Below, piece after piece: positions 8,503 through 46,216 of a stretch of 64,000 nucleotides of DNA. This DNA comes from Pirellulales bacterium (GTDB lineage Bacteria; Planctomycetota; Planctomycetia; Pirellulales; JACPPG01), in contig DASZWQ010000024.1 of the NCBI GenBank assembly GCA_035546535.1, forward strand, positions 1 through 64,000, read 5' to 3'. Positions within the stretch are counted from its first letter, which is position 1, and every line of letters begins with the position of its first letter. The notes beneath the pieces were generated by a model. It made no database searches, had not been told where the DNA came from, and saw only the letters and a program-made list of their open reading frames with translations. The position numbers were made by a program, and so were the translations under genes.

Positions 8503-8747
8503 AAAACGACCGCATCGCCCAATTCACATGCGCGGCTAATCAACCGCAAATATGCCAGCGCTAGAATTCGCCACTCGTCACGGGCGAGATGGATTCGCGG
8601 GCTTGGATGGAATGACGCGCTCGGTCTCACGTGGAGTTCCAATTCCCGACACGTTGACCTGTTCGCCCATTGGCGTGCGTCGTTGCGCCAGCGAAGCACT
8701 GGCTGCGCACCGCCGATTCAATTCACCAACGGAATGGAGGAAGGGCC

Positions 8748-10226
8748 TTGTTGTCACGCAAACCAGTACTTGCAGCCGTGCTTGCCGTCACTGCCTGGTC
8801 CACGTCCGTGCCCTTCGTGATGGCGCAGAACACGCCGATCACAAGCTTCACGCCAGGTGACCTGGTCGTCATGCGCGGCGGTGACACGACACATTCGCAG
8901 CAGGACTACAGCATCGGCGAAGTGCCCGCCTATCTCGACGAATACACCCCGGCGGGAACGTATGTGGGCACGTACGCCATTCCCACGTCGGTGATGACGT
9001 TGCCCGGCATCGGGCTCAATAGCCACGAAGGGCATCTGAACGTCTCGGGCAACGGCCAGGACATCGATTTCGCCGGTTATCAGCAAGCCGTCGACCCCAG
9101 TACGCCACGCGTGACCGACGGCAGCGGCACGGGCGATTACTACCAGGTCGGCCAGGTGTCGCTGGGCGGCACGTTCACGCACACGGCGCTTGATACTTCG
9201 CAGGCATTTCCTCAGTTCATCCGTGCGGCGTATTCCGTGGACGGTACGCAAATGTGGGTTGCCAGCAAATACAACGGACCGACGGCGAACGGCTTCGGCG
9301 GCGGATTGGAATACATCGCGAACTTCGGCACGGCCACGGCCCACACCACGGCTCTGCAAGGCGGCACCGACTGGCGAACCGTGCAGGTTGTCGGCGGACA
9401 ACTGTACGGCGGCACCGGCTCGAGCTCCGTGGGCGCGCATGGCTTTTATGCGATCGGCCAGGGCGCGCCGACGACGCCCCTTCCGGCTAACACTCTGCTA
9501 TCGCCGATCGGGAACAATTCCGTGACGGCATTCAGCTTCACGACGTTGCCCGGCTCGCAGCCGATCAATGGCGTTGCCGGCACGCCGAACGTGGTCTATG
9601 TGACCGGCGATCCCTCCGGTACCGCATACCTGGGCAAGCTCTACTCGCCCGGCGGCACGCCGCTCGGCGCCAGTAACCTTACGTTCGCATCGACCGCGAA
9701 TTTCTCGGGGCTCGGCACGCCCGAGGGCTTGTCGGTGCGTATCGATCCCACGAACAGCTCGTGGGTGGATATCTTTCTGCAAACGACGACCGGCGTCTAT
9801 TCGGCGATCGACAAGAGCGGAGCGTCGAACGCTGGTTTTGGATCATTGCAATTCACGCAGATCGTGAGCAGCACCAGCGACACGAGCTTTTACGGTTTGG
9901 CGTTGATTCCGACCGCCGCGCAAGTGCTCGTCGGCGACGTCAATCTGGATGGCATCGTCAACAGTCAGGACCTGGCGCTTATCTCGAGCAATTGGCTCGC
10001 AAGCGGAGCCAACGAGGAAGGCGACGTCAACCACGATGGCATCGTCAACAGTCAGGACCTGGCCTTGGTGTCGTCGAACTGGCTGGCCACGGCCCCGGGC
10101 GGCAGCGGAAACGCGGCAGCCGTTCCGGAGCCGGGAACGTTTGTCTTGGCGATCATGGCGCTGCTCGGGTGGCAATTCGGCCGCCGACGTTTTGTCGTAA
10201 CGCGGCCGGCCGCGCCAGGCGGCTGA
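8748..10226 (+). CDS. PEP-CTERM exported protein with dockerin type I repeats
   Basis: About 492 residues from a TTG start at 8748 (or 8751); GGAGGAAG lies a few bases upstream and a clean signal peptide follows (LSRKPVLAAVLAVTAW, cleavage near VMAQN), so I prefer this to the ATG at 8670. The body starts SFTPGDLVVMRGGD and VPAYLDEYTPAGTYVGTYAI, paralogous to the divergent gene. A dockerin type I pair follows at about residues 400-450: GDVNLDGIVNSQDLALISSN and GDVNHDGIVNSQDLALVSSN, each a calcium-loop plus F-helix. The C-terminus is VPEPGTFVLAIMALLGWQFG and an Arg-rich end, an exosortase signal. Surface attachment is inferred from the family. Confidence 0.88.
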   Translation: MLSRKPVLAAVLAVTAWSTSVPFVMAQNTPITSFTPGDLVVMRGGDTTHSQQDYSIGEVPAYLDEYTPAGTYVGTYAIPTSVMTLPGIGLNSHEGHLNVSGNGQDIDFAGYQQAVDPSTPRVTDGSGTGDYYQVGQVSLGGTFTHTALDTSQAFPQFIRAAYSVDGTQMWVASKYNGPTANGFGGGLEYIANFGTATAHTTALQGGTDWRTVQVVGGQLYGGTGSSSVGAHGFYAIGQGAPTTPLPANTLLSPIGNNSVTAFSFTTLPGSQPINGVAGTPNVVYVTGDPSGTAYLGKLYSPGGTPLGASNLTFASTANFSGLGTPEGLSVRIDPTNSSWVDIFLQTTTGVYSAIDKSGASNAGFGSLQFTQIVSSTSDTSFYGLALIPTAAQVLVGDVNLDGIVNSQDLALISSNWLASGANEEGDVNHDGIVNSQDLALVSSNWLATAPGGSGNAAAVPEPGTFVLAIMALLGWQFGRRRFVVTRPAAPGG

Positions 10227-12675: not shown

Positions 12676-15180
12676 ATGACGACCGATTCTCGCATCAGTG
12701 AGCTGATCGCCCGCTGGGAAGCGCTCAACTTCCAGGGGCAGAATGTCAGCATCGAGCAACTGTGCGGCGACTGTCCGGAACTGGCGGACGAGCTGCGCAA
12801 GCACGTGGCCCAACTCGCGGCGCCATCGGCGCAGGTCAATGAGACGCTGGCCGAGGATTTGACCGCCGGCTCGACGCCTTCGGCAAAGCTGCCCGCCCCT
12901 CCGACGCCCGGCGGTGGTCGTTACCCCAACCTGCCCGGCTACGAAATCGTTAGCGAGTTGGGGCGCGGCGGGATGGGCGTCGTCTACAAGGCGCGGCAGA
13001 TCAAGCTGAACCGGCCGGTCGCCATCAAAACGATCATCTCCGGCGCCCACGCCGGCGCGCGCGAGCGGGCGCGGTTCGCGGCCGAAGCCGAATCGGTCGC
13101 CCGATTGCAGCATCCCAACATCGTGCAGATCTACGACGTTGGCGAGCACGACAGCGCTCCGTACTTTTCCATGGAGTTCGTCGACGGCCCCAGTCTGCAT
13201 CGCCGGCTGCAAGGTCAGCCCGTCGATGAGACCACGGCAGCTACGGTGCTGGAAACCATTGCCTTGGCGATCCAATACGCGCACGAGCGCGGGATCGTGC
13301 ATCGCGACCTGAAGCCCGCCAACATCTTGATGGCTGGCCCCGAGGACGCGCCGCTGCGCGACTGCATTCCGAAGCTGACCGATTTCGGCCTCGCGCGCCA
13401 GTTGGAAGAAGACGTGCGCTTGACGCAGACCGGTGTCGTCCTGGGCACGCCGTGTTACATGGCGCCCGAGCAAGTCGAGAACCCGACGGCCGACATCAAG
13501 CCGGCGGTTGATATCTATGGGCTGGGCGCGTTGTTGTACGAAATGCTGACGGGTCGGCCGCCGTTTTCGGCCGCATCGAATTTCGAAACAATGCGGCTCG
13601 TCGTGACCGAGGATCCGGTGCGCCCGAGCCTCTTGCGGCCTTCGGTGCCGCGGGCGCTGGAGCGCATTTGCCTGAAATGCCTGGCGAAACACCCGGAAGA
13701 TCGATACGCAAGCGCCCAGGCCTTGGCAGACGATTTGGCCCTGTTCCTGGACGGCGAACGTCCCACGGCAGAGAACGAGCGGCAGAGCGTCATTCGCCGC
13801 CGCTCGCAACGAAGAACGACCCCGGCCGGTACCAAGCGCAACGCGCCCTGGCTTACGCGTCACTGGCAACTGGTGACCAATCTGCTGCTGGTCGCGATTG
13901 TGTCCGGAATGGTCCTGGCCGGTTATTGGCACCTGCGCCGCGAAAGCACTGAGTCGGCCGAAGCCGACGTCGCTGCGTCACTGCCCGCGGTGCCGCCCGC
14001 ACCTCCCATCAAAGTCGGCATTCTGCATTCTTTGACCGGCACGATGGCTATCAGCGAACAGGCGGTGGTCGACACGTGCCTGCTGGCCATTGACGAAATC
14101 AATGAGCAGGGGGGCCTGTTGGGGCGCAAGATCGAGCCGATCGTGCGCGATGGCCGCTCCGATCCGCCCACGTTTGCGCGCGAAGCCGAACGGCTGCTCG
14201 CCGAAGATAAAGTCTCGGTGGTCTTCGGCTGTTGGACGTCAGCCGCACGCAAGACGGTACTGCCGATCTTCGAAAAGCATGACAGTCTGCTTGTTTACCC
14301 TGTCGAGTTCGAGGGTTTGGAGCAAAGTCCGAACATTCTCTACATCGGTCCGGCGCCGAACCAGCAGATCATTCCGGCCGTGAAGTGGTGCTACGCCTTC
14401 CTCGATCCGCCGGCGCGACGATTCTTCCTGGTCGGTTCGGACTATGTCTTTCCGCACGTGGCCAACGCGATCATCCGTGACGAGTTGAAAGGTATGGGGG
14501 GCGAGGTGGTCGGCGAAGCGTACATTCCGCTGGGGAGCAGCGACGTTGCCGCCGTAATTCAGGAAATTCGCGATGCCAAGCCCGATGTCGTGCTGAACAC
14601 GGTCAACGGCGACAGCAATATCGCGTTGTTTCGCGGCCTGTTCCTAAGCGGCCTGCGCCCTGACAAACTGCCGGTTCTTTCGTTTTCGGTCGGCGAGCCG
14701 GAACTGCGCAACATGCAGTTGGAGGACGTGATCGGCGACTACGCGGCGCGCAACTATTTCCAGACAATTGATTATCGCGAAAATCAGGAGTTTTTGCAGC
14801 GGTTCTGGGCTCGGTATGGCCGCCAACGCGTCGTCAGCGATGCTATGGAATCGGGCTACGTTGGCGTTCACCTGTGGGCCAAGGCCGTGCAAAAGGCCCA
14901 GAGCGACGATCCGGTCAAGGTGCGCCAATCGCTGCGCGGACTGGAATATGATGGACCGGGCGGCCCCATATTCGTCGACCCGGTACTGCTGAATACTCAC
15001 CGCACGACACGCATCGGCCGCGTGCGTCCTGACGGGCTGTTCGATATCGTGGCCAGCTCCGGTAGCGCCGTCGCCCCGATCATCTTTCCCAAGTCGCGGA
15101 CGCCGGCCGAGTGGGAATCGCTCCTCGAATCGCTCTACAAAAAATGGGGCAACAGTTGGAGCGGGCCGCGGAGCGAGTGA
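12676..15180 (+). CDS. Receptor Ser/Thr kinase fused to a UrtA-like substrate-binding domain
   Basis: An 834-residue fusion. Residues 1-45 are the planctomycete kinase leader (CPELADELRKHV). Residues about 92-360 are a complete Hanks-type kinase: LGRGGMGVVYKA, VAIKTI, IVHRDLKPANILMAG, DFGLAR, MAPEQ. One membrane span follows at about 397-418 (LLLVAIVSGMVLAGYW). Residues about 445-825 are a type I periplasmic-binding fold most like UrtA/AmiC urea- or amide-binding proteins: KVGILHSLTGTMAISEQAVV, DGRSDPPTFAREAERLL, YIGPAPNQQIIPAVKW and GSDYVFPHVAN. The binding domain should face the periplasm and the kinase the cytoplasm, so a small amide or amino-acid-like ligand could control phosphorylation. 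No transporter genes are adjacent. The catalytic HRD, DFG and VAIK Lys are all present. Confidence 0.92.
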   Translation: MTTDSRISELIARWEALNFQGQNVSIEQLCGDCPELADELRKHVAQLAAPSAQVNETLAEDLTAGSTPSAKLPAPPTPGGGRYPNLPGYEIVSELGRGGMGVVYKARQIKLNRPVAIKTIISGAHAGARERARFAAEAESVARLQHPNIVQIYDVGEHDSAPYFSMEFVDGPSLHRRLQGQPVDETTAATVLETIALAIQYAHERGIVHRDLKPANILMAGPEDAPLRDCIPKLTDFGLARQLEEDVRLTQTGVVLGTPCYMAPEQVENPTADIKPAVDIYGLGALLYEMLTGRPPFSAASNFETMRLVVTEDPVRPSLLRPSVPRALERICLKCLAKHPEDRYASAQALADDLALFLDGERPTAENERQSVIRRRSQRRTTPAGTKRNAPWLTRHWQLVTNLLLVAIVSGMVLAGYWHLRRESTESAEADVAASLPAVPPAPPIKVGILHSLTGTMAISEQAVVDTCLLAIDEINEQGGLLGRKIEPIVRDGRSDPPTFAREAERLLAEDKVSVVFGCWTSAARKTVLPIFEKHDSLLVYPVEFEGLEQSPNILYIGPAPNQQIIPAVKWCYAFLDPPARRFFLVGSDYVFPHVANAIIRDELKGMGGEVVGEAYIPLGSSDVAAVIQEIRDAKPDVVLNTVNGDSNIALFRGLFLSGLRPDKLPVLSFSVGEPELRNMQLEDVIGDYAARNYFQTIDYRENQEFLQRFWARYGRQRVVSDAMESGYVGVHLWAKAVQKAQSDDPVKVRQSLRGLEYDGPGGPIFVDPVLLNTHRTTRIGRVRPDGLFDIVASSGSAVAPIIFPKSRTPAEWESLLESLYKKWGNSWSGPRSE

Positions 15181-30641: not shown

Positions 30642-33600
30642 TTAGCGCGTCGGCGGCTTTCTGTGGTGCGCGGCCAAAAGCGTTGCCAGTTCGCTCGCAA
30701 GCGCGGGGGCAAGATTCTCGGCCGTGGCCGCGTACTCGACCAGGGCTGCATCCCACGCCGCGTCGCGCCACGCGGCGTTCGATGTGCTGCTGTCCGGATT
30801 GGCGCCGTCGAGTGCGGCAGCCGCGGGACTATGAGCAAGCGCGCCCGGCAGAGAGGAAACGGAATCCGTTTGCGCGGGCGATAATGTCGTCGACGAACCG
30901 ATCACGGCCGCCAGACTGGTGCTGGATAGCTGCCCGGAGCTAGCTGCCCTGCCGCTTGCCGTCATAGACGCGGCGGCAAGCATCGTCGCGCCGCCGCTGC
31001 CGTCTTGCACCGTACCGAGGACGGGCGAGCCCGCCGGCGATTGCGACGCAACGGGCGCCGCCGACGAGCCGGTGTTGTCATGCGAGGAGTCGGCGAAATC
31101 ATCAAGCACGTTGCTGACTGCGGCGACCGCCGGTTGGGGCGCGGCAGGTGCAGAACTTGGTACCGCGGCTGCGGCGACAGACGCCGTAGCGTCCGCCGGC
31201 TGCGAAGCGCCACTCGAAAGCGCCGGTGTCGAGCCCGCTGCCATTTCCATCGTCACGGAAGTGCCGGCGGGCTGCGCTGGCAGTCCTTTCGTCCAACTGG
31301 CCGACAAAGTTGCCAGGTCTTGGGCATTGATGATCCCGTCGCCGTTGGGATCGATCCACGGAAATCCGTTGAAGGCGCCGTTTTGCAACGACGCGAGCCA
31401 ACTGGAAGAAACCAGGGCAAGGTCCTGCACGTTGACGATGCCGTCCCGGTTGACGTCGCCGGGCAAGACATTGAACGAGAAGTTGAAATCGCCGCCGGCC
31501 TGGCCATTGCCCGAGGGGTACGCCCTTGCTCCATCGGTCCAATCGCCGTCGAGCGGATTGCCGGATAGATCAGTGACGGCGTTCAGCCCGGTCGAGGCGA
31601 GGTGAATCTGCACGCGATCGGCGCCGATCGGCTTGGACAGCGTCCATACGGCCGAATAATTCGCGGCGTCGTAACTGAAGCCGGTGATCGTATATTGCGC
31701 CACGTTCAGGCCCGTCAGCGTCAGGCTTCCTTGTTGGACGTTGACGGGCTCGTTGAACTGCACGCGAATCTCGTTCAAGCCGCTCCAAGGCAGGGGCGAT
31801 AACTGCGCCGCCCCGCTCGGCAGGGAATATCCGTATAGAGGATTCAGGAACGTCAGTTGCTGTTCAAAGTTCTGCGACCAGCCGGTGCTGTCGACCGCAA
31901 CGTCTTTGATCTCGGGAGGCGACGTAACTTGTGCCGCGATTTGACCAATGCGGACGAAGTTTGCCGGATCGGACGCAATGAGGCTTAACGAGTCCGATCC
32001 GCTAAAGCCGGGAGGCGCTTGATAGGACAAACCATTGGCCGCCGCTAAAGTCGCATTGATCTGGGCGAGCGTCGCCGTGATCGCGATGTCGTGGCTGCCC
32101 AGGAAAGCGACCTCATCGGCCGTGACACCGCCCGGGATGTTCGCGGCCATAAGAATCTGCCCTTGCTGCACCGAAATATCGAGACGGACGTCGTAAGGAG
32201 CGGGCAGGCCTGGATCGCTCAGCGAAACGCCCGAGATCGCCACCGTTTGCCCACCGACCGCGTGCGCGGGAGCTGTTGGTACCGTGATCGTCAACGGACC
32301 GACGTCAATGATCGCGATACTCACGTTGCCGATATTGCCGACGCCGTCATTGGCCGCAACGGTGACGGTGTCTGGCCCGACGTAGCCGTTCGCCGGCTGG
32401 TAACTAAAGTCGAGATCTTCGAGCGTGGTGTTAATCGCATCCAAGGGTGCGGTCACAACGACCATGCTTGTTCCGTTGCCCGAAACCTGGTCGGCCGACA
32501 ACCCGCCGTACATCGACAGGGGAACGGTAATTGTCCCATGAGATGCCGACAATGTGACCGTGACGTTGTTGCCGGTTGGGAAGCCGGGGTCGCTTATCCC
32601 GAGCGAAAGTAACTGATCGCCCTGGGGCGCGACGAGTATCGGCGACGTGGGCACGTTGTTGAACGAGATCGGGCCCGCCAGGCTCAGCTGTACGATGGCG
32701 CTGGCGACATTTTGCAGCGAATCTTCGGCCGTGATGGAAAGTTGATCGGGGCCTGCAGCACCGCTCAGGGGCGCGTACGACAAGCCATGTGCGTCGGCCA
32801 ACGTGGCATTGATTGCCGAGAGTGGCGCCAGCACCGTGACGAGATTCGTACCGTTGCCAAGAATCTGCGCCGCCGTGATTCCGCCAGCAACACTCGTCGA
32901 GAGGGTGAGGCGACCGTGCTCGACCGAGAAGGTCGTTACCACATTGGCCGACGGTGACGCGACCGCTTCCACCAGCGAAATGCCGCCGAGCGGCGTCACG
33001 CCCCCACCGACAGGGACGGGACTCAAGGGAGCCACGATGGAAAGTGGCGGACTGACCGATACCGCAATGCTGGCCGAACCGGTTTCTCCCCCAGCATTCT
33101 CCGCTGAGACGTCTATCTCATCCGAGCCGATGTAGCCGCTAAATGGAGTGTACGACAGCCCATTTGCGGCCGAGAGCGTGGCATTGATCTCGTCGAGTGC
33201 CCCCTGAAACATGACGAACGACGATCCATTGCCAAAAATCTCATTGCTGGTCGCGCCGCCTGGAACGGTTGTCGAGAGAGCGAGAATGCCGTGCGGCGCG
33301 GTTATTGTCACGTCATAAAATTGGTTCGGTTCGTCAGTATTCTGGATGGAAATTCCGGCGATCGGCTGCGACGAGTTTGCGATGACCTGGAGGAAAGGGG
33401 GCGCGGTAACGAAGATACCAGTGCCGAGATTGATTGAGGCCGTCGCGGTATTGCCGACAGGATCGGTGGCCTGGATAAACGCAAAGTCGCGGCCGACGAA
33501 GCCTGCGTCAGGCGTATACGACAGGCCATTAGAGGCAGCCTGTGTATTGTTAATTTGGTACAGGGGCGCCGTGATCGTGACGTTGTTGGTACCGTTTCCG

Positions 33601-36600
33601 GTAATCTCGGCCGGATTCAGTCCACTGATCACATCGGTCGCGACATTGAGCGTGCCATGCAGCACCGATAGCGTCACGGTGACGTTGCTACTATCGCTCA
33701 AGCCAAACTCGGAAACCGTGACACCCGTGATCGGCGTGGGAAGACCCGGAGTTACCGGTAGCTGATTCCGTGCTAATTCGACGGACAGGTCACCAAGGAT
33801 CGAGAACGTCGCCTGCTCCGTGTCGCTGTTGCCCGCGCTGTCGGTCGCAGCGAGGGTTAGTGAATCGATGGCGATGACCCCGATTAATGGCGTGTAAGTC
33901 AGGCCGCTCGCCGCGGCCAAGGTCGCATTAATTTGGCTCAGAGTAGCCGTGACGGTGACACTACCTGTGCTGTTGCCAGTGACTTGGCCGGCCGTGACTC
34001 CACCGGTCACCGCTGTACTGAGCGCGATCGTTCCCTCTGCTGCCGACAAAACAACCGTCACATTGTCGGTGGATGGCAATCCAGGATCGACAATCGAGGC
34101 TCCCGTAACGGTCGTGGAGCTGTTAGCGCGAACGTACGCGCTCGCGGGCAGATTGACGCTTAAGGGGCCAACGACGCTGATCGTTATTGTGGCCGCGATC
34201 GTACTCTGCAGCTGATCGTCTAGCAAAAGTGAGAGCGTGTCCGGGCCGTGGAAGCCGGTGTTGGATCGGTAGCGCAGTCCGTTCAAGGCAGCGAGCGTGG
34301 TGTTGAGCTGCGCCAGCGTTCCGGTCAATGTGACAAGGCCGGAGTTGTTCCCGCTCACATTTGTCACTCCGCCGGATATGTTCGTGGCGACATTGAGAAC
34401 TCCGTGCCCGACGGCGATCCTAAGCGTGACGGCGCCGGCGCTCGACACGGACGGATCGACGAGCGAAATGCCTGTGACGCCAATACCAATCCCGGACGGC
34501 GCTTCGATCGTACTGGGGGCGTTGATCAAGGCCCCGATGGCGATGGAAAACGCGTTCGAGGCGGAATTGCCGAGCTGATCCGTGGCACCGAGATTTACCG
34601 TGTCCGCGCCGCTGTAGCCTGGCGCGGGCGAGTACGTGACGCCGCCGACGGTCGCGATGCCGGCGGGAGCCGCGAGAGTGGCGTTGATTTGGGCCAGGGT
34701 CGCCGTGACGACGACGTTGGCCGTGCCGTTGCCGGTGACCTGTGCAGCCGAAACACCGCCTGACACGCTGGTCTTCAGCAGGATCGTGCCGTGTAAGGCA
34801 CTGAGGCTGAGCGTGACCGTATCGCCGCTGGGTAAGGACGGGTCCGACAGAGACAGTCCGCTAACGGCGAGCGACGTATTCATCGGCGTGGCAAGCGGCG
34901 ACGTGGGCACGCTGATGAGGAAGTTCGTGACCACGGAAAGCGATATGCTTGCCGTCGCTGTATTGCCCAGTGAATCGCTGCTGGCGATCGCGAGGTTATC
35001 CGCGCCGGCGAAGCCGATCGTAGGCGCGTAAACCAATCCATTCGTGGCGGCCAGCGTGGCGTTCGTCGCAGCGAGTGGCGCCGTGATAGTGACGCTCGAA
35101 GTACCATTGCCAGTAATTTGCGCCGCGGTGATGCCTGCCGCGACATTCGTCGGCAGCGTGATCGTGCCGTGGGCGACGCTGAACGTTGTCGTCACGTTGG
35201 CGAAAGCCGGCAGGCCCGCATCGGTAATCGACACTCCCGGAATCGCCAGCGACTGATTTGCCGTAACTTGCTGACTTCCCGGCACCTGCACATTCATGGA
35301 GCCGGTCACGGTGAGCGTGAAGGCCTGCGCGTCGCTCAAGCCGCTATTCCGGTCGTCCGCGTGCGCCACCAGGTTCAAAGTGCCCGAGAAGCCCGCCTTG
35401 GGGGTCAAGGTCACGGTGGCCGTGTTATTCGCCCCTGGCGTGACAGTTACGGTGACGTTCTGCGGCGCGGGGTAGGGAGCCTGGCCGAAGGGGTTCTGGT
35501 CACCGATGCTAAATGTCGGCGAGCCAAGCGTAGCGGCTTCTGTTGCCGAAATCGTGAACTGAACCGACTGCCCCGCTTGCGTCGTGAGATTGCTGATCGG
35601 GTTCAAGGACAGGTATGAATCGCCACTGCTAACAGGCAGGACGCTGACGTTAAACGACTGTTGCTTCGAGGAGCTATCCGAACCCGTGGCGGTAACCGTG
35701 ACCGTCGCGTTGCCCGTGAAGCCGGCCGGCTCCGCGATCTGCAGGACGGCGTTTTGGTTGTCGTTGTTGATGATCGTGGCCGAGGTAATCACGACCGGCG
35801 TATTGGCATAGTCGAGATCTTGTCCTTGTGCCGTCGTCGGCACGTGCTGAATCTTGCTGTACACGCCGCTGGGGTCGTTGAGAAGCTGACCGAAAATCGT
35901 ATAGCCATAATTCAGGAACTGCGGCTCCTGGGCAAGTGGTACGCCCGGTGCCATCACAAAGATCTCGGTGGACGCCGTCTTCTGGCCGGTCAACGGATTG
36001 GTCGACGCCGCCATCGCCAGCACGCCCGGCGAATTGAAGGCGACGTTCACGTTGTATTCGTTCGGCAGCGTGGGGCCTGTGACCGTTGGATTCGTGTTGC
36101 TCGGCGGAAGGAGGCCTCCCTGAATCAACGAGAAGCTCGGGTCGGTCTCCATCCGGTAGAACGACGCGGTGTCGAAGATGCCGTTGTTGACGTCGTTGAT
36201 GATTCCTTGCACCGTCTGCGGGGCCAGATTCTGGAACAGGACGAACGTCAGAGTGCCGCTGAACGCGTGACCCTGCGCATCGGTCCCCGCCACGTTCAAT
36301 ACCAACTCGGGATTGCCGGTAAGCACGGTCGCCGTGACGCTCGAGTTCGTGGTGGTGGCCGTGTACGTGATCGCCTGGCCCGGATCGCTGGCCGTGAGCG
36401 GGACGTATAGATCCTTGCCCGACGGAATGTTGTAGCCCGAGTTGGTCTCGGGCCCCGTGATTTGGTTGAAGGTGACCGTCAGCAGGCGACGATCTTCGAG
36501 CGGTTCGCAGCGGAGCGCGCGGAAGGCGATGCCCGCGGAACCGGGTGCGAAGAGCGCACGGAGTTTGCGAACTCTAGCCTTGCGGAAGCCAAGGATGCCC

Positions 36601-36602
36601 AT
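30642..36602 (-). CDS. Giant surface protein: cyclophilin-like head, nine repeats, dockerin
   Basis: 1986 residues. The N-terminus has a basic segment and the planctomycete export motif CEPLEDRRLLTVTF (residues about 32-45). Residues about 95-280 resemble a peptidyl-prolyl isomerase of the cyclophilin type (FDTASFYRMETDPSFSLIQG then NPLTGQKTASTEIFVM), though catalytic residues look incomplete. After two Ig-like or cadherin-like segments come nine tandem repeats of about 125 residues (435-1557) with the pattern GNGT..VTITAPL..INATLAA, NGLSYTP and a GADTLT.TATD end. An Ig-like segment (1558-1660), two dockerin loops (GDVNRDGIVNVQDLALVSSS, DPNGDGIINAQDLATLSASW) and an Ala/Ser-rich tail close it. 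Likely a cell-surface protein. Confidence 0.88.
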   Translation of the reverse strand: MGILGFRKARVRKLRALFAPGSAGIAFRALRCEPLEDRRLLTVTFNQITGPETNSGYNIPSGKDLYVPLTASDPGQAITYTATTTNSSVTATVLTGNPELVLNVAGTDAQGHAFSGTLTFVLFQNLAPQTVQGIINDVNNGIFDTASFYRMETDPSFSLIQGGLLPPSNTNPTVTGPTLPNEYNVNVAFNSPGVLAMAASTNPLTGQKTASTEIFVMAPGVPLAQEPQFLNYGYTIFGQLLNDPSGVYSKIQHVPTTAQGQDLDYANTPVVITSATIINNDNQNAVLQIAEPAGFTGNATVTVTATGSDSSSKQQSFNVSVLPVSSGDSYLSLNPISNLTTQAGQSVQFTISATEAATLGSPTFSIGDQNPFGQAPYPAPQNVTVTVTPGANNTATVTLTPKAGFSGTLNLVAHADDRNSGLSDAQAFTLTVTGSMNVQVPGSQQVTANQSLAIPGVSITDAGLPAFANVTTTFSVAHGTITLPTNVAAGITAAQITGNGTSSVTITAPLAATNATLAATNGLVYAPTIGFAGADNLAIASSDSLGNTATASISLSVVTNFLISVPTSPLATPMNTSLAVSGLSLSDPSLPSGDTVTLSLSALHGTILLKTSVSGGVSAAQVTGNGTANVVVTATLAQINATLAAPAGIATVGGVTYSPAPGYSGADTVNLGATDQLGNSASNAFSIAIGALINAPSTIEAPSGIGIGVTGISLVDPSVSSAGAVTLRIAVGHGVLNVATNISGGVTNVSGNNSGLVTLTGTLAQLNTTLAALNGLRYRSNTGFHGPDTLSLLLDDQLQSTIAATITISVVGPLSVNLPASAYVRANSSTTVTGASIVDPGLPSTDNVTVVLSAAEGTIALSTAVTGGVTAGQVTGNSTGSVTVTATLSQINATLAAASGLTYTPLIGVIAIDSLTLAATDSAGNSDTEQATFSILGDLSVELARNQLPVTPGLPTPITGVTVSEFGLSDSSNVTVTLSVLHGTLNVATDVISGLNPAEITGNGTNNVTITAPLYQINNTQAASNGLSYTPDAGFVGRDFAFIQATDPVGNTATASINLGTGIFVTAPPFLQVIANSSQPIAGISIQNTDEPNQFYDVTITAPHGILALSTTVPGGATSNEIFGNGSSFVMFQGALDEINATLSAANGLSYTPFSGYIGSDEIDVSAENAGGETGSASIAVSVSPPLSIVAPLSPVPVGGGVTPLGGISLVEAVASPSANVVTTFSVEHGRLTLSTSVAGGITAAQILGNGTNLVTVLAPLSAINATLADAHGLSYAPLSGAAGPDQLSITAEDSLQNVASAIVQLSLAGPISFNNVPTSPILVAPQGDQLLSLGISDPGFPTGNNVTVTLSASHGTITVPLSMYGGLSADQVSGNGTSMVVVTAPLDAINTTLEDLDFSYQPANGYVGPDTVTVAANDGVGNIGNVSIAIIDVGPLTITVPTAPAHAVGGQTVAISGVSLSDPGLPAPYDVRLDISVQQGQILMAANIPGGVTADEVAFLGSHDIAITATLAQINATLAAANGLSYQAPPGFSGSDSLSLIASDPANFVRIGQIAAQVTSPPEIKDVAVDSTGWSQNFEQQLTFLNPLYGYSLPSGAAQLSPLPWSGLNEIRVQFNEPVNVQQGSLTLTGLNVAQYTITGFSYDAANYSAVWTLSKPIGADRVQIHLASTGLNAVTDLSGNPLDGDWTDGARAYPSGNGQAGGDFNFSFNVLPGDVNRDGIVNVQDLALVSSSWLASLQNGAFNGFPWIDPNGDGIINAQDLATLSASWTKGLPAQPAGTSVTMEMAAGSTPALSSGASQPADATASVAAAAVPSSAPAAPQPAVAAVSNVLDDFADSSHDNTGSSAAPVASQSPAGSPVLGTVQDGSGGATMLAAASMTASGRAASSGQLSSTSLAAVIGSSTTLSPAQTDSVSSLPGALAHSPAAAALDGANPDSSTSNAAWRDAAWDAALVEYAATAENLAPALASELATLLAAHHRKPPTR

Positions 36603-46069: not shown

Positions 46070-46143
46070 GCGCCCGTGGCGCAACTGGATAGCGCATCGG
46101 TCTTCGGAACCGAGGGTTGCAGGTTCGAATCCTGCCGGGCGTG
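46070..46143 (+). tRNA. tRNA-Arg, anticodon TCG
   Basis: Complete cloverleaf of 74 nt: acceptor GCGCCCG/CGGGCGT (one G-T pair), D stem GCGC/GCGC, anticodon stem TCGGT/ACCGA with loop CTTCGGA, so anticodon TCG (codon CGA), and T arm GCAGG-TTCGAAT-CCTGC. No CCA encoded. The start of an unrelated reading frame overlaps it. Confidence 0.95.
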
Positions 46144-46216
46144 CTTCGACGTTCGTCTTGCTTCCATGCCAAGCGGGCGCTGTCGGCTTGGGATCTTTTC
46201 ATCAAAGAGGCCTCGC

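Follow-up and report, generated by a model that had tools for sequence, protein, structure and literature searches.

To our knowledge, a small-molecule ligand has been identified for few bacterial Ser/Thr kinases. Animal receptors combine a type I binding fold outside the cell with a kinase-like domain inside, and the architecture of the planctomycete protein described here parallels them, in the opposite chain order. Bacterial Ser/Thr kinases fused to solute-binding domains have been known since 2005, when a survey described two examples, in Nostoc and Streptomyces (PMC1262709). These place both domains in one chain, as the protein described here does, but their sensors are ANF-receptor-like (branched-chain amino acid) and Glu/Gln-type and were not described as UrtA type, and neither is planctomycete; the UrtA-type planctomycete form is a new variant. 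In the GlnH-GlnX-PknG system of Actinobacteria, genetically supported in Corynebacterium, the solute-binding protein GlnH acts through the membrane protein GlnX on the kinase PknG (PMC9769921), so that here too an outside binding protein controls an inside Ser/Thr kinase. It uses three separate proteins, however, and senses Asp/Glu, and is thus a split counterpart of the fusion. PASTA kinases (e.g. PknB and Stk1) share the kinase fold, the cytoplasmic kinase, the single span and an extracellular sensor, but have PASTA repeats in place of a Venus-flytrap domain.

The closest relatives of the sensor itself are UrtA of ABC transporters (8tg1, 7s6e, 7s6f, 8hic; TIGR03407) and, more distantly, AmiC, the amide receptor of Pseudomonas (1pea, 1qo0, 1qnl). 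Nine residues of Prochlorococcus UrtA are in the immediate vicinity of bound urea, and the hydrogen bonds to the ligand are made by Ser122, Gln144, Tyr190 and Asn246; Gln144 contributes two of the six (one side chain, one main chain), Trp120 positions Asn246, and replacing any of these five residues with alanine weakens or abolishes urea binding (PMC10392092). Gln144 has been described as strictly conserved in UrtA. AmiC uses the same fold for signalling rather than transport, but it is only 30% identical to the sensor described here, has another pocket, and controls AmiR without a kinase. No report of an UrtA-type receptor kinase was found in the open-access literature searched, and the main text of a 2024 survey of planctomycete kinases mentions neither urea nor ABC transporters. 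Within the literature searched, the original prediction's remark that no case had been characterised is therefore borne out, although database product names for the kinase-UrtA architecture may exist.

The protein is encoded on the forward strand at positions 12676-15180 of the window – the whole 64,000-nucleotide stretch of Pirellulales DNA that was analysed – and has 834 amino acids and an ATG start. Comparison with orthologues from three genomes of the genus reveals protein-coding constraint on both the kinase domain (dN/dS 0.04-0.28) and the periplasmic-binding domain (dN/dS 0.10-0.19); these values, well under 1, rule out a chance reading frame, and the gene is confirmed as genuine and intact, far beyond chance. 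Residues 1-88 (12676..12939) form a putatively cytoplasmic N-terminal segment, helical at 5-48 and disordered thereafter as judged from AlphaFold2 secondary structure and pLDDT, with a start region kept in the genus alignment. Residues 89-352 (12940..13731) match the Hanks-type Ser/Thr kinase domain (Pfam PF00069, Pkinase, 188.5 bits). The motifs GRGGMGV at 96, VAIK at 115, HRDLKP at 209 (HRD 209-211), DFG at 236-238 and APE at 263-265 are intact, and K118, E137, D211, N216, D236 and E265 are invariant in an alignment of 39 sequences, so that the Gly loop, VAIK Lys, alpha-C Glu, HRD Asp, DFG Asp and APE Glu of a Hanks-type receptor kinase are all present. The best structural matches of the kinase domain in Foldseek are the PASTA kinases PknB and Stk1.

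A single transmembrane helix is predicted at residues 394-420 (13855..13935), around the sole hydrophobic peak of the protein (399-417). In the full-length AlphaFold2 model (pLDDT 84.8; pTM 0.54, so that relative domain placement is unsure) one helix runs from 394 to 434 and reaches the first strand of the binding domain at 445. Of 69 family members, 60 have a hydropathy value above 1.6 for a 19-residue segment ahead of that domain, and Lys and Arg are in excess on the kinase side of the span in 49 of the 69 and lower there in eight. The span is thus predicted to part a cytoplasmic kinase from an extracytoplasmic sensor. Pfam matches, motifs, hydropathy and AlphaFold2 agree with the original prediction in finding a kinase, one membrane span and a full type I periplasmic-binding domain in one chain, and hydropathy, charge bias and the model likewise favour its assumption that the span places the two domains on opposite sides.

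The predicted extracytoplasmic sensor occupies residues 445-808 (14008..15099), where Peripla_BP_5 (PF13433) matches with 474.4 bits (E 3e-142); the NCBIfam UrtA model TIGR03407 matches residues 445-804 with 453 bits, just below its cut-off of 492.75. It had been placed at 445-825, and while its start and complete fold stand, its end does not: the match stops near 808 and is followed to about 830 by a helical tail (residues 809-834, TPAEWESLLESLYKKWGNSW; 15100..15177) that is conserved in the alignment consensus of relatives and modelled as a helix at 810-823. An AlphaFold2 model of the isolated domain (pLDDT 96.7, pTM 0.94) has the urea-binding proteins 8tg1, 7s6f, 8hic and 7s6e as its top Foldseek matches, with 46-51% identity, TM 0.91-0.92 and rmsd 1.2-1.6 Å for the best chains against the predicted model (8tg1: TM 0.92/0.97, 51% identity). 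AmiC follows at 30% identity and then more distant binding proteins. The domain is thus UrtA-like, as proposed, and of the two comparisons suggested originally that with UrtA is close and that with AmiC is not. It differs from UrtA in sitting behind a kinase and a span, in falling below the model cut-off, in lacking a detectable UrtC partner, and in one residue of the pocket.

Aligned to 8hic, the pocket consists of W520, S522, Y541, E544, E546, Y590, F592, N644 and S671. The protein shares eight of the nine pocket residues with Prochlorococcus UrtA, Trp120, Ser122, Tyr190 and Asn246 among them (seven of the eight W120, S122, Y141, Q144, E146, Y190, N246 and S274, plus Phe192), but Gln144 is replaced by Glu544 (14305..14307). 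Loss of the ligand-contacting pocket residues had been named as one finding that would refute the original prediction, and the outcome on this point is mixed. Because the Q144A mutation weakens or abolishes binding (PMC10392092) and Gln is described as strictly conserved in UrtA, it cannot be taken for granted that this copy binds urea. AmiC-type specificity is rejected on pocket residues (AmiC YSYPEYYVT, window protein WSYEEYFNS), AmiC having Tyr, Pro and Val where the window protein has Trp, Glu and Asn. The window copy may still bind any of the ligands first proposed – urea, an amide or a related compound – though for roughly half of the family at large the support for urea is good.

We propose that this is a single-pass receptor Ser/Thr kinase whose UrtA-type domain probably senses urea or a close analogue as a signal and not for transport. 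That an extracytoplasmic ligand controls the kinase is the most secure part of this proposal and probable. For the window copy, the ligand is somewhat more probably than otherwise urea or a small urea- or amide-like molecule; that it is urea itself is a tentative suggestion, below an even chance. Outside the inner membrane the UrtA-type domain would close on the ligand, and closure of the flytrap would shift the membrane helix. This shift, probably acting through a kinase dimer, could alter trans-autophosphorylation inside, presumably as activation rather than inhibition, and the kinase would then phosphorylate putative cytoplasmic targets. The sensor would derive from an ABC-transporter-type binding protein and now act without any transporter.

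A different account of the pocket is that the Gln144-to-Glu change shifted the specificity of the window copy, either to another urea-like molecule (e.g. a cationic guanidine or amidine) or to urea at altered affinity. Glu is found at this position in the window protein and in two orthologues from the genus (G002 and G003), with Gln in a third (G001), and the domain tree indicates that the change most likely arose within the genus. Only four of 69 kinase-fused domains have Glu there, and no standalone domain among 43 does; other paralogues also have remodelled pockets, among them the second receptor kinase of the same genome (WSYTEGYSK). However, none of the remaining eight residues of the pocket has changed, the oxygen-binding Ser122/Tyr190 pair fits urea or an amide better than guanidinium, and Glu could still accept a hydrogen bond from a urea nitrogen. 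We regard such a shift as possible, though on the unlikely side.

That second receptor kinase (contig C167, L129:3330-6206) has a longer linker, recurs in three further genomes of the genus, and is 46% identical to the window copy in the sensor domain; from its pocket residues it very likely binds something other than the ligand of the window copy. Apart from these two, no Peripla_BP_5/6 protein was found in the genome.

Across the class Planctomycetia, a strong PF13433 match was found in 118 of 298 sampled genomes and the kinase-fusion layout in 62 of the 298, fusions being counted here by frame length (PF13433 in a frame of at least 776 aa). Within the genus, the fusion is also present in each of the other four genomes. 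Of the fetched domains, 69 distinct ones were taken as kinase fusions, 65 with an HRD-type motif and the other four with a Pfam Pkinase match. In a phylum-wide sample, strong PF13433 matches outside the class lay in short frames with the sole exception of G275, whose 1642-aa frame has no kinase domain and was rejected as a fusion; none of the 80 loci picked by kinase-motif patterns in a scan of named genomes had an UrtA-type domain. On the domain tree, whose root and deep branches are unsure, the Ser/Thr kinase-fused domains cluster, with two label changes against 37.8 when labels are shuffled, which points to one or a few fusion events.

All five urea-critical residues are kept in 36 of the 69 Ser/Thr kinase fusions; the same holds for 29 of the 43 standalone domains and for each of the four histidine-kinase fusions. 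On the tree, this trait requires at least nine changes among the Ser/Thr kinase fusions. Pocket columns are conserved above the domain average in the fusions (0.81 vs 0.60, permutation p 0.003) and likewise in the orthologues from the genus (p 0.024). When the comparison is restricted to columns that standalone UrtA conserves, the pocket is not significantly better kept in the kinases than the remainder (0.87 vs 0.75, p 0.23). These patterns bear on the idea that the domain has moved past small-molecule sensing and now mediates dimerisation, anchoring or protein interaction. Several family members lack most pocket residues (e.g. SPYIEDGAV, GRYNEQEVR), but the above-average conservation of the pocket and the retention of every urea-critical residue in those 36 fusions make such a role improbable.

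A receptor for urea or a close analogue can be placed in a wider setting, in which the class uses a family of urea/amide receptor kinases, derived from the urea-binding protein of a transporter and diversified, with tandem copies having different pockets, so that small nitrogen compounds would serve as signals in bacteria lacking urease or a urea ABC transporter; we rate this broader picture only just short of an even chance. Proteins in which urea binding is known at atomic detail are the source of the fold and, for about half of the family, of the whole pocket, so that signalling from ligand to kinase is directly testable, and relatives with intact pockets, alongside the window copy, are the best subjects for study.

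Two or three receptor kinases with differing pockets lie in tandem at three loci (L095 of G482, L097 and L110), the pockets at L095 being WSYHEYYNS, MSFSELSNS and WSYQEYFNS, which suggests paralogues specialised for different ligands. Among the standalone UrtA-type proteins another pocket, WSYAEYWVS, recurs (7 of 43) and probably receives a different ligand. Four hybrid histidine kinases (L098:2907-6146, L099:4914-7799, L117:3249-6104 and L120:3255-6125) have an N-terminal UrtA-type domain followed by HisKA, HATPase and two receivers, one also with Hpt; they form one clade on the tree and show the UrtA domain recruited for sensing a second time, separately from the Ser/Thr kinases.

The genes around 12676-15180 encode DUF1559, SDR, DUF1552 and planctomycete cytochrome-type proteins, with a DUF1592 protein also in the region, a gene content that points to the class Planctomycetia; none of the nearby genes belongs to a transporter or to urea metabolism. 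Urease, UrtC and formamidase/acetamidase (FmdA) were not found in the genome, although a gene may have been missed in an assembly of 210 contigs with 97% completeness; three BPD_transp_2 permeases are present. The claim that no transporter lies nearby thus holds, both among the neighbours and in the genome-wide search for UrtC. An all-against-all comparison of reading frames at 81 loci gave no widely shared neighbour family, the largest groups being, by our reading, the fusion gene itself and frames overlying it. Although UrtA ordinarily works as part of a transporter (PMC10392092), a kinase that partners a urea ABC transporter and monitors uptake as its fused substrate-binding subunit is highly improbable, with no UrtC in its own genome, UrtC at E<=1e-60 in only four of 298 class genomes (one of them with a kinase fusion), and no conserved transporter gene nearby; membership of an UrtABCDE transporter finds no support in the lack of UrtC and of shared neighbours.

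A link to a urease operon was also rejected, there being no urease in the genome, no co-occurrence and no shared neighbours. Urease was found in 5 of 62 fusion genomes and 37 of 237 others (p 0.15), and genomes with PF13433 proteins not fused to a kinase are strongly enriched in it (25/53 vs 17/246, odds ratio 12); both statistics ignore kinship, and the tables total 299 genomes, one above the 298 sampled, which does not affect the outcome. A connection of the fusions to urea as a nitrogen source is therefore not supported. Since standalone UrtA tracks urease, yet UrtC is so rare, many standalone copies may function outside a UrtABCDE transporter of the classical kind, unless the permeases that serve them are divergent. 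The urea carboxylase model passed its cut-off in no genome; its matches fell mainly within positions 1-440 or so, the pattern expected of biotin carboxylases. Elsewhere in the window, a 1986-aa protein that combines cyclophilin, bacterial Ig and dockerin domains is encoded at 30645-36602 on the reverse strand and another dockerin protein at 8670-10223 on the forward strand, and the only tRNA gene detected in the window, for tRNA-Arg (tcg), lies at 46070-46144 on the forward strand.
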